Shown piece after piece: positions 60,975 to 64,000 of a stretch of 64,000 nt of DNA. Under the pieces are notes generated by a model. It ran no database searches, was not told the DNA's origin, and saw only the letters and a program-made list of their open reading frames with translations. Each line of letters begins with the position of its first letter. The stretch's first letter is position 1. The DNA lies in the NCBI RefSeq assembly GCF_028869115.1, contig NZ_CP079800.1:682001-746000 (forward strand). The letters are read 5' to 3'. The translations under genes were made by a program, and so were the position numbers. This stretch comes from Pseudemcibacter aquimaris (GTDB lineage: Bacteria; Pseudomonadota; Alphaproteobacteria; Sphingomonadales; Emcibacteraceae).

Positions 60975-61391
60975 ATGAAATACATATTGATAATAGTAGC
61001 TCTAATTTTGCCGTCAGTTTCAATGGCAGAGGACGTGATTAAACCATCAGTCATGAGCAAGGATGAAATCGCGGGTAAAATATTTGAACGCCCCAGCATG
61101 ATCACGACCCATGAAAATAATGATACTCAACTGGATGTCAGATCATTACTTTCCAGCGATGAAAAATTTGATGTTGGTATGTATAAAGCAGGTAAAAGCC
61201 GCTTTGAAATCACAGAACCATATGGTGTGGATGAATTTATGTATTTCACAAAAGGAAGTGTGAAGTTGACATCTTCCGATGGGTCAGTAGTTGTTATAAA
61301 TGCTGGTGATGCTGTTACGATCCCAAAAGAATGGACAGGCATTTGGGAAACAGATGGATATGAAAAAATATATGTAATATATACACGCTAA
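60975..61391 (+). CDS. Exported cupin-domain protein
   Basis: A 138-residue protein with a signal peptide (residues 1-18, ending SMAED) and a cupin domain of the DUF861 type. GMYKAGKSRFEIT, the EFMYFTKGSVKLTSSDG strand pair, and VVINAGDAVTIPKEWTGIWETDG are typical. In DUF861 members one metal ligand is kept, but most lack a known reaction. Here the expected EP/E..H metal site is only partly recognisable, so a binding role is possible. It begins nine bases after the transporter and precedes the ATP-grasp gene by 38 bases. Confidence 0.82.
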   Translation: MKYILIIVALILPSVSMAEDVIKPSVMSKDEIAGKIFERPSMITTHENNDTQLDVRSLLSSDEKFDVGMYKAGKSRFEITEPYGVDEFMYFTKGSVKLTSSDGSVVVINAGDAVTIPKEWTGIWETDGYEKIYVIYTR

Positions 61392-61429: not shown

Positions 61430-63217
61430 TTGACCAAGTTTAATGAAGATACGTTTAATACACATGGGCCAAGTATATTTACGTCATATCAGGCCGCAAT
61501 AACACCCGTTACAAGTGATTTATTTGAATTGACGGCTCAACTGAACCAGCATCAACATAACGTTCTTTCTTTGATTTTGCCTGAAGTTATACAAGATAAT
61601 CTCTCACCTTTGGAAGGGTTGTCATTAGGTGAGATTTTGTTAGAGCTTACTAAATCAATTAATTCATTAAAAAGCCCGGATGATTTAATTATTGAGATTA
61701 AGGAAGATCATTTAGGTAATCAGTATTTATGTGTTGAATATCTTTTTGATTTAGTGGCTAATTTTTCAAGTTATTTAGCGATTGAAATACTTAGATTTGT
61801 GTGTAATGGGAAAAAAGTACCACTGGAAAATGTTAGAAGAGAAGTTGAAGGAAAATTAGCAAGCTTAATGATGGTTCCATTGCGCGAATTAATGCAGAAT
61901 ATGCTTAGCACTGCAAGAGATATGCGCATCCCGTTTTATTTGGTTCATGAAGCATATCCTGTTTATATTTATGGCCAGGGTAAAAATGCTGTATTTTACA
62001 ATCATGGTAATCCGCAAGGTAATAGTGAAATAGGGGGAAAGCTACAAAAAGATAAGGCGCATACGAATGCAGTATTAAGAAAACTTGGTTACCCGACGAC
62101 CCAACAAGTCATCATTAGAAACCTTGAACATTGTACGGCTGAGGCACGAAAAATGGGATTTCCTGTCGTGATAAAACCAGTAAACATGGGGCAAGGTAAA
62201 GGAATTACCGCAAATATTAAAAATGTTGAAGAGTTGAAGTTTGCCTTTCAAAAAGCTTCTGCCGTTAGCAACAGTTATTTAATTTTGGAAAAATTTGTTG
62301 AAGGTGACGACCATAGAATTTCTGTCACTAACGGCAAAGTGAATTTAGTATCCAGAAGGCGCGCACCATACGTTATTGGTGATGGTGTTAATTCCATTAC
62401 ATCATTGATTGAGCAAGAAAACAGACGTCGTTTAGGTCTTGTTGATGAAGAATGTGATTTTTATTCGTTAGTGATAGATGACGAGATGCTTAGGCTTTTA
62501 AATGGCCAAGGGTTTTCACCGGATAGTGCACCAAGTATAAACGAAAAAGTGATGCTCGGTACTATTGATAATGTTTCAACAGGCGGTACTTTGAAAGCAA
62601 TTAATATGGAAGATGTTCATCCAGATAATATCAAGATGGCAGGGTATGTTTGTAGAGCCTTTAGAATGACGTCCATGGGTATTGATTTCATGACACCTGA
62701 TATTTCAAAATCCTGGCGGGAAGTTGGCGTTATTCTTGAGTTGAACGCATATCAGATGGTCGGTAAAGAAGTTGCTGCCCGAGTGTTTAAACATGAATTT
62801 TCAGATAAAAATAACGGGCGGATTGATAGCATATTAATCGTTTCACAAAATAAAGAATTCGGAAGACATTTTCTTGAAGTTAATAAAGAGAAATATTTAA
62901 GCCTGGGATATTCTGAACATGATTACACATTGATCAATGGTGGGGAAACAACTGCATTAGAAGATAATATTTATAGTCGTTGTTTATCCATGATACTTGA
63001 TCCTGAATGTGATGGATTAATGGTTATGATGACACCCGATCAAATTGCTAAACAGGGTTTGCCATTAGATCATTTTGACAAGGTTATCGTTGATGATCAA
63101 TGCAAGGATGTACTTTGGGATAATCAAGACGGAAAAATCAAAATCCTTGATTGGTTAGATGGTTTTTGTTCTGAGGTAAAAATCATATCTTTTGATGAAA
63201 TCGTTCATATACCTTAA
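61430..63217 (+). CDS. Cyanophycin synthetase-like ATP-grasp ligase, Mur domain vestigial
   Basis: A 595-residue protein resembling the first half of cyanophycin synthetase. An N-terminal region (about 1-175, with THGPSIF) precedes the YGQG motif (181-184) of CphA. The ATP-grasp domain (about 205-450) has VVIKPVNMGQGKG, ILEKFVEGDDHRI, RRAPYVIGDG, NVSTGG and the metal pair E437/N439. In CphA a Mur-ligase half follows. Here only about 135 residues remain: the GTNGKTT P-loop is replaced by SQNKEFGR (472-479), while DPECDGLMVMMTPDQIAKQGLPLDHFD still aligns with the CphA GGILREGL block. Start is TTG behind AGGGGGAA. It probably joins a carboxylate to an amine in peptide-like synthesis; substrate is unknown. 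Confidence 0.8.
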   Translation: MTKFNEDTFNTHGPSIFTSYQAAITPVTSDLFELTAQLNQHQHNVLSLILPEVIQDNLSPLEGLSLGEILLELTKSINSLKSPDDLIIEIKEDHLGNQYLCVEYLFDLVANFSSYLAIEILRFVCNGKKVPLENVRREVEGKLASLMMVPLRELMQNMLSTARDMRIPFYLVHEAYPVYIYGQGKNAVFYNHGNPQGNSEIGGKLQKDKAHTNAVLRKLGYPTTQQVIIRNLEHCTAEARKMGFPVVIKPVNMGQGKGITANIKNVEELKFAFQKASAVSNSYLILEKFVEGDDHRISVTNGKVNLVSRRRAPYVIGDGVNSITSLIEQENRRRLGLVDEECDFYSLVIDDEMLRLLNGQGFSPDSAPSINEKVMLGTIDNVSTGGTLKAINMEDVHPDNIKMAGYVCRAFRMTSMGIDFMTPDISKSWREVGVILELNAYQMVGKEVAARVFKHEFSDKNNGRIDSILIVSQNKEFGRHFLEVNKEKYLSLGYSEHDYTLINGGETTALEDNIYSRCLSMILDPECDGLMVMMTPDQIAKQGLPLDHFDKVIVDDQCKDVLWDNQDGKIKILDWLDGFCSEVKIISFDEIVHIP

Positions 63218-63243
63218 CTTTTAAAAATGGAAATTTTGAATTA

Positions 63244-64000
63244 ATGGAAATTAAAATCAATAATTTAAAGGTTTTTCATGGACCCAGTATTTATCTATCC
63301 AAAAAAGCTGTTGTCCTAGAATATGAATTGCCAATTAAGAATTATAACTTTTCCGAAAATGATTTTAATAACATGAAGTCTGTTTTACCTGATCATGTTG
63401 CAAATTTAGTGATCACGCCTGAACTTTTTAAACAAAAAAACATTCCTCAATTAATGAAAATTTTATTATGTAATCTATTAAACCTAAAAGGTAATAGAGA
63501 ATTTTTTATTGAGGATAAAATAAACGACAATCAAAATCATACTATGGTCGTTCAATTTTTTGATGAAGTCGTAATAAAAATAGCAATAAATATTATGATG
63601 ACCATTATTAATCATAGTCTTGCGAATGGAAAAACGAACACATTTCAATTAAAACAGCACATTTCGATGGCAGTAGAACACTTGATTTCTGAAATGCCGG
63701 GAAATGTAATTCGTATTATGCAAGAAGAGGCAATCGAACGAAATATTCCGTTTTATCCGGTTGGAAACAAACCAACAGTTTATTTGTATGGACAAGGTTC
63801 CCAGGGAATAATTTATGACCATTCGTCAAACAGAAATGATAGTGTTTTTGGTTATTTTCTTTCAAGAAGCAAATTGAAGACTTGCCAATTCATTCGCACA
63901 TTAGGGTTTCCTGCGACAATTCAATTACCTGTTCGTACTTTTGATGATTGCATTCGAGCTGCTGATCAAATTGGATACCCTGTCGTGGTTAAACCTAATG
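63244..64000 (+). CDS. Second CphA-like ATP-grasp gene, cut by the window end
   Basis: An open frame from ATG 63244 continues to the last base (252 codons seen). It is paralogous to the previous gene: VFHGPSIYLSKKAVVLEYEL matches the CphA N-terminal opening, IPFYPVGNKPTVYLYGQGS matches IPFYLVHEAYPVYIYGQGK of the neighbour, and IGYPVVVKPN is the ATP-binding lysine block at the cut. It starts 26 bases after the first gene, so both are probably in one operon. The C-terminal part, and whether it keeps a Mur domain, lies outside the window. AT content is high, as in its partner. Confidence 0.75.
   Translation, partial: MEIKINNLKVFHGPSIYLSKKAVVLEYELPIKNYNFSENDFNNMKSVLPDHVANLVITPELFKQKNIPQLMKILLCNLLNLKGNREFFIEDKINDNQNHTMVVQFFDEVVIKIAINIMMTIINHSLANGKTNTFQLKQHISMAVEHLISEMPGNVIRIMQEEAIERNIPFYPVGNKPTVYLYGQGSQGIIYDHSSNRNDSVFGYFLSRSKLKTCQFIRTLGFPATIQLPVRTFDDCIRAADQIGYPVVVKPN

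Follow-up and report, generated by a model that had tools for sequence, protein, structure and literature searches.

The single-contig genome of Pseudemcibacter aquimaris (3,369,470 bases) contains ten CphA-like genes at five loci, detected with a CphA profile search of the genome, and one of these loci starts at the right end of the window, that is, the whole 64,000 nt stretch of DNA that was analyzed (genome positions 682001-746000). The polymer cyanophycin, which is produced non-ribosomally by CphA-type enzymes, is of industrial interest. The ten proteins are probably not cyanophycin makers, and we consider it fairly probable that they are ATP-dependent amide ligases of the cyanophycin synthetase lineage with a CphA2-like build and diverged substrates. 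Judged from the sequences, the family combines a reduced domain layout, an invariant catalytic core, a missing Mur P-loop, a ten-fold expansion, and the loss of several residues by which CphA1 handles cyanophycin and aspartate.

Ten CphA-like genes at five loci

In the window, the gene W1 (61430-63217, + strand) encodes a 595 aa CphA-like ligase that consists of an N domain, an ATP-grasp domain, and a Mur-derived tail. Its start codon is TTG, with the motif GGGGGA just upstream. The next gene, W2 (593 aa, + strand), starts at 63244, crosses the window end at 64000, and extends to genome position 747025 (L006:7025). Reading the sequence past the window end showed that both genes are intact and that they are followed on the same strand by W3 (577 aa) and W4 (591 aa). 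The first-pass annotation had described a tandem pair; the tandem arrangement of CphA-like genes is real, but there are four genes in this cluster and ten in the genome. The motifs HGPSI, YGQG, and PVV[IV]KP that it had reported are indeed present in both W1 and W2. The gaps within the cluster are 26, 90, and 23 nt long, and W1 starts 38 nt past the stop codon of the preceding gene. This leaves hardly any space for a small gene, and a RiPP-type precursor peptide was therefore rejected for the gaps of this cluster. Downstream of W4 follows xthA on the opposite strand. Inspection by eye of the 9 kb past the cluster revealed housekeeping-like frames and no peptidase, transporter, or precursor gene paired with the ligases.

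The gene directly upstream of W1 encodes a 138 aa Cupin_3 protein (60975-61391, + strand), a homologue of which also adjoins the single family copy of the congener G008. We treat it as a neighbour only and not as an established functional partner of the ligases. Further upstream lies the gene for a queuosine precursor transporter (TIGR00697; 60273-60965, + strand), which is also a neighbour in G008 and is not thought to be part of the ligase function.

The other family loci are B1-B2 at 1.41 Mb, C1 at 2.11 Mb, E1 at 2.52 Mb, and D1-D2 at 2.76 Mb. All ten genes are single intact frames of 577-595 aa. The ten places scored 190-234 bits with the CphA profile, none of them near the cut-off of 850 bits (the best protein reached 234 bits with NCBIfam TIGR02068, under its cut-off of 850). 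The same places scored 751-804 bits with a ten-row alignment of the family genes, which is no independent test because the ten genes themselves built that alignment. Pairwise identities range from 27 to 42% among the ten proteins, and from 26 to 42% once the G008 copy is added. The eleven members are most similar in the ATP-grasp domain (mean identity 39%), less so in the tail (30%), and least in the N domain (18%). The AT-richness noted earlier for the run in the window was recovered for the whole family, with a GC content of 32-38% in the ten genes compared to 42.8% in the window; the difference at third codon positions is modest (0.26-0.32 versus 0.32-0.45 in nine measured neighbour genes). 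Judged by titles and the starts of abstracts, which are no proof of absence in print, none of the papers listed in literature searches describes such a ten-copy family.

Domain layout and active-site residues

All ten proteins share one layout: a CphA-type N domain is followed by an ATP-grasp domain, the catalytic residues of which are invariant, and by a Mur-derived tail of about 135 residues without a P-loop. In W1, the N domain covers residues ~10-160 (61457-61909, + strand), the ATP-grasp domain residues ~205-445 (62042-62764, + strand; K209, K249, R296, R310, D419, E437, and N439), and the tail residues 461-595 (62810-63214, + strand), which are predicted to form a folded alpha/beta domain. 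E437 and N439 had been assigned correctly to the ATP-grasp core from the beginning, and both are invariant across the ten paralogs. The Cx19HxxEH zinc site of the N domain is missing in W1 and in all other members (11 of 11, including the G008 copy); according to the available part of PMC9262961, it occurs in 83% of CphA1s and is thus not strictly defining for CphA1.

The Pfam matches of W1-W4 above the gathering score are ATP-grasp-type families. Mur_ligase_M gave no match in W1-W4 at E<=1 with HMMER, the filters of which drop many weak matches; a profile search for an intact Mur P-loop in W1, proposed as a check, left the claim of its loss standing. The best NCBIfam match of W1-W4 is cyanophycin synthetase, far under the cut-off. 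For W1 and PRK14016 the values are E 5.3e-60 and 203.5 bits (family cut-off 877), and judged by this E-value the resemblance to CphA greatly exceeds chance, though the score is far under the PRK14016 cut-off. N-acetylglutaminylglutamine synthetase and GshAB have a homologous ATP-grasp domain (75-118 bits in W1-W4 at a cut-off of 569, and 77-102 bits at a cut-off of 425, respectively), but they differ in their other domains.

By sequence, CphA1 and CphA2 are the closest solved relatives. For W1, an AlphaFold model (pLDDT 84.6, pTM 0.74; 47 rows) matched TeCphA1 and CphA2 along the full length, so that the structure comparison with CphA1 that had been recommended supported the assignment. The TM-scores by query were 0.70 (7wae) and 0.63 (7ta5), with rmsd values of 6.0 and 7.8, and the positions of the domains therefore probably differ between the model and these structures. 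The tail (residues 461-595) is an ordered alpha/beta domain in the model. In sequence, it corresponds to the first part of the CphA1 Mur domain and to the CphA2 tail; the alignments with CphA2 7ta5 and 8fxh extend over the beginning of the tail. At the position of the TeCphA1 P-loop GTNGKTT (~62843-62866, + strand) W1 reads SQNKEFGR, aligned as SQNKE, a gap, and FGR. The P-loop is absent from all 11 members. The earlier description of a degenerate Mur half was accurate with respect to the length of about 135 residues and the SQNKEFGR replacement, but the P-loop loss is not special to the first copy; "remnant" is the right label, yet the tail is a part that all copies have kept.

The same build is known from CphA2 (PDB 7ta5, 8fxh/8fxi), which in about 590-640 aa likewise joins an N domain and a single ATP-grasp site to a shortened Mur tail devoid of GTNGKTT, and which is 20-23% identical to W1 by structure alignment. 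Compared to CphA1 (PDB 7wac-7waf, 7lg5, and others), the family shares the N-domain start and the ATP-grasp core and keeps a remnant of the Mur domain, but it is about 300 residues shorter and lacks the Mur P-loop, the zinc site, and the specificity residues. The statement that CphA needs both halves applies to CphA1; it fails for CphA2, which works with one active site according to the available part of PMC10206079. The reduced layout also occurs in further CphA-like proteins without a P-loop (23 of 80 loci of the genome-contig scan described below, a protein of genome G433, and a CapA fusion of Microvirga), which differ from the family in that all 24 tabulated proteins retained Arg323, and no expanded set was seen among them. 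To our knowledge, this group has no characterized member. The reduced layout is not unique, since CphA2 and 23 of the 80 related loci have it; what is unusual is the set, with ten copies of 27-42% identity in a genome where no CphA1 above cut-off and no Peptidase_S51 cyanophycinase were found and where the Mur domains are of the MurC/D/E/F and FolC types. Neither such an expansion nor the lost specificity residues nor the absent pathway is described for CphA1 or CphA2 in the available parts of the texts.

Active-site residues were mapped in TeCphA1 numbering on an alignment of 60 rows, which comprised the 11 family members, three solved references, 24 reduced CphA-like proteins (22 of the 23 scan loci, one 5'-open row having been dropped, plus the G433 protein and the Microvirga CapA fusion), and 22 CphA1s (17 of 55 scan loci with a P-loop, plus 5 from relatives). 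K220, K261, R309, D431, E450, and N452, the ATP- and metal-binding residues of ATP-grasp ligases, are invariant in all 60 rows, including the 11 members. The roles of K220, K261, E215, H267, R309, R323, N394, S396, G456, and R458 were taken from the available part of PMC9427784. H267, R458, and H460 are lost in all 11 members, G456 persists in D1 alone and E215 in C1 alone (by the 60-row alignment), and N394 is present in 10 members, with His in W4. The alignment is gapped around G456-H460 because the family is shorter there. TeCphA1 and both CphA2s share Arg323, Asn394, G456, and H460, compared to 5, 10, 1, and 0 of the 11 members, respectively, and they share an APG..MHxxP stretch that has no counterpart in the ten paralogs. 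CphA2 is itself devoid of H267, R458, and the zinc site, and has Asp in place of E215; the absence of H267, R458, and the zinc site alone is therefore compatible with a CphA2-type product.

A further position is Arg323, which, as far as the available part of PMC9427784 describes, contacts the gamma-phosphate and the incoming aspartate in CphA1, and the replacement of which by Ala impaired TeCphA1. All 49 non-family rows (24 reduced proteins, 22 CphA1s, and 3 references) have Arg at this position. Within the family, Arg is present in W1, W3, B1, B2, and D2, and it is lost in five of the ten paralogs (six of 11 with the G008 copy), namely replaced by Met in W2, W4, E1, and G008, by Asn in C1, and by Cys in D1. 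The alignment is secure here, because the spacing from R309 to GDG is gap-free in the ten. The tree described below requires three changes at this position, that is, at least three losses, and a tree uniting the six Arg-less rows was rejected (p-AU 0.0066, for a group chosen after the tree had been seen). The variation of Arg323 and the His at Asn394 in W4 imply that some copies may be inactive. The repeated loss at a position otherwise occupied by Arg, together with the effect of the Ala replacement, would fit a scenario in which the Arg-less copies (W2, W4, C1, D1, E1, and that of G008) have become pseudo-enzymes, which would still bind ATP or substrate and modulate the active copies; we regard this as unlikely, because the six other tabulated catalytic residues are invariant in the very same copies and because no other family member that could be modulated was found in G008.

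Phylogeny and distribution

A maximum-likelihood tree was calculated with 42 rows (the family, the references, 16 of the 24 reduced proteins, and 12 of the 22 CphA1s). The family forms one clade (support 100/99), separate from CphA1 (99/99) and CphA2 (100/100), and its neighbours are the G433 protein (96/87) and the CphA2s (85/83), both on long branches; the family does not group inside the CphA2 clade. Another clade contains 13 of the 16 reduced CphA-like rows. Within the family, W1, W3, B1, and B2 form subclade I (93/84), D1, D2, W2, W4, E1, and the G008 copy form subclade II (92/83), and C1 is outside of both. B1 and B2 are sisters, as are D1 and D2, and W2 is the sister of the G008 copy (100/94). 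The gene order of W1-W4 by subclade is thus I-II-I-II, which fits the earlier idea that a two-step ligation is split between two proteins, or, more specifically, that the two subclades alternate on one growing product. But the support of the subclades is moderate, the other two pairs consist of sisters of the same subclade, C1 and E1 are single genes, and G008 has only one copy, so that we regard such a division of labour as quite improbable.

Family members are rare in other genomes. A search of 12 congener assemblies, which consist of tens to hundreds of contigs each and include one that is 53% complete, revealed a single member (582 aa, 620 bits), in G008. Its gene is located between the genes for the queuosine transporter and the cupin, that is, in the same neighbourhood as W1-W4, which follow the cupin gene. 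Matches of CphA1 size or CphA1 score were found in nine congeners (G001 and G004-G011, in G008 besides the family member); those of G005, G006, and G007 end at contig ends. The P-loop was seen in five of them (G006 and G008-G011), and the other four were judged by frame length and score. The family search gave no match at 1e-30 in G002, G003, and G012. Wider searches covered the order (396 sampled genomes, cut-off 1e-95), the class (385 genomes, 1e-85), and the phylum (398 genomes, 1e-85), with at most three candidates scored per genome. Apart from the own genome and G008, these cut-offs were passed only by G433, a more distant match with 289 bits; they are so strict that weaker relatives would be missed.

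When W3 alone was used to scan genome contigs, no match was obtained. The ten-row alignment yielded at least 415 confirmed stretches, the best 80 of which were analyzed; 55 have a P-loop, 23 are devoid of it (559-690 aa), and two (L071 and L089) contained no usable frame. These counts leave out reverse-strand loci of the genome search (L020, L023, L026-L029, and others). At six loci (L046, L052, L061, L064, L072, and L103) from several Proteobacteria and a Chlorobiaceae bin, the reduced CphA-like gene adjoins a gene that, by eye, encodes a methyltransferase-like protein. These neighbours are of at least two kinds and hint that the wider reduced group may have natural-product roles. In plasmid records, W3 matched 124 entries; among the 20 listed, 19 carry the name cyanophycin synthetase, and the remaining one is a CapA fusion. 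The latter, a CapA-annotated protein of 1004 aa on a plasmid of Microvirga ossetica (L128:8779-11793), opens with a reduced CphA-like ligase and adjoins type I secretion genes.

Genomic settings, pathway context, and possible products

In four of the five clusters, the first family gene starts 38, 15, 23, or 15 nt past an unrelated gene on the same strand, and the G008 copy starts 5 nt past the stop codon of such a gene; C1 faces away from its upstream neighbour. The candidate host genes in the genome are trmL, the SRAP gene, an SDR gene, and the cupin gene. From this spacing of 15-38 nt we infer read-through of host transcripts, and nine of the ten genes probably ride on the transcript of the upstream host gene.

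Empty sites were compared for two of the five clusters, B2-B1 and D2-D1. B2 and B1 are located between trmL and hemF, which are neighbours within about 20 nt in all 12 congeners (one contig ends inside hemF). D2-D1 is flanked by genes for an SRAP protein and a PQQ dehydrogenase, which are adjacent in G001; at the other 10 congener SRAP loci the PQQ gene is not within the available 1.5 kb, and no SRAP match was obtained for G007. The gene content between cupin and xthA also varies among congeners, with four ligases here, other genes in G005, and a gene for a polysaccharide flippase-type protein plus two further ones in G008. The latter two (613 and 584 aa; region L126:2191-7586, between the cupin gene and xthA) look alike and, by eye, asparagine-synthase-like; they gave no Pfam match at 1e-5, and the 584 aa protein none in NCBIfam at 1e-10. 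The cupin match of G005 (L131, G005:C67:789-1172) contains one internal stop codon.

The empty trmL-hemF site, the lower GC content, and the identity of only 39.6% between W2 and the G008 copy, compared to 67-89% for seven flanking genes, would be expected for a mobile or fast-replaced accessory family that is repeatedly acquired from an unsampled pool and serves conflict or surface variation rather than metabolism. Against this, no transposase or integrase was recognized by eye among the open frames beside the family genes, the five cluster regions contain neither inverted repeats nor boundary direct repeats of at least 20 nt (the direct repeats present are coding blocks shared by paralogs or a 22 nt pair inside C1), and no tRNA gene was found in six loci. 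A defence system was rejected because PADLOC gave no match for W1-W4, the four proteins submitted, and a phage origin because one scan of viral contigs yielded no relative. The timing is unreadable as well: in each of the 14 pairs compared, housekeeping genes included, synonymous sites have reached or nearly reached saturation (pS 0.64-0.76), so that fast divergence in place is not separable from the acquisition of already different genes, and the data support no claim of positive selection or of recent duplication. Altogether, we consider a mobile family of this kind unlikely.

The pathway context is informative about whether the family could be CphA2 proper, which repolymerizes the beta-Asp-Arg dipeptide into cyanophycin. 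For such an enzyme, a CphA1 and a cyanophycinase would be expected in the same genome to provide the dipeptide, but the own genome contains neither a CphA1 above cut-off nor a match to the Peptidase_S51 cyanophycinase. Isoaspartyl dipeptidase gave six weak matches and none above cut-off, and the complete known cyanophycin pathway was thus not found. The family resembles CphA2 in layout, size, solved relatives (including 7ta5 and 8fxh), the lack of several residues, and its adjacent position in the tree (85/83), but CphA2 is a long clade of its own, the APG..MHxxP stretch has no counterpart in the ten, and Arg323 is gone in six of 11 members. We consider CphA2 proper a very improbable identity of the family.

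A different amide product, as proposed in the first-pass annotation, is plausible for CphA-like ATP-grasp proteins in which the catalytic core looks intact while the Mur half has no ATP site. In the preferred reading as amide ligases with diverged substrates, the G domain would phosphorylate a carboxylate, which an amine would then attack to yield an amide bond. Donor and acceptor would differ from Asp and Arg, probably also between paralogs, while the tail and the N domain may serve assembly or substrate holding. The five of ten copies without Arg323 might use a substrate without the side-chain carboxylate that this residue binds in CphA1, or they may be helper copies. The three Asparaginase_2 proteins above cut-off count against ligases for other substrates, because an isopeptide product could be degraded by them. 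A bolder version, which we regard as doubtful, is that a ten-member, fast-diverging CphA2-like set has replaced cyanophycin synthetase, with intact cores and individual pockets, as tail genes of unrelated host operons, and jointly makes a set or a mixed polymer of new amides. If the cores are the same and the pockets differ, the ten copies would be a natural panel for new amide or polyamide products and would help to learn which residues set specificity. The label "cyanophycin synthetase" can mislead where the cyanophycin-specific residues and the remaining pathway are missing.

The own genome encodes five Mur_ligase_M proteins, namely MurE, MurC, FolC, MurD, and a 480 aa neighbour of MurE that is probably MurF, and on the basis of this set a separate Mur domain complementing the ligases was rejected. 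The MurD-type ligase gene is next to a gene for a MurL-like protein (446.5 bits, cut-off 700; L018:3624-6201, ~2.52 Mb), and this pair is located 2 kb from E1, while MurE and MurC are in another cluster. MurL is an L-Glu epimerase, and a MurD-MurL route to D-Glu exists in other bacteria. The gene pair suggests that this route is used here as well.
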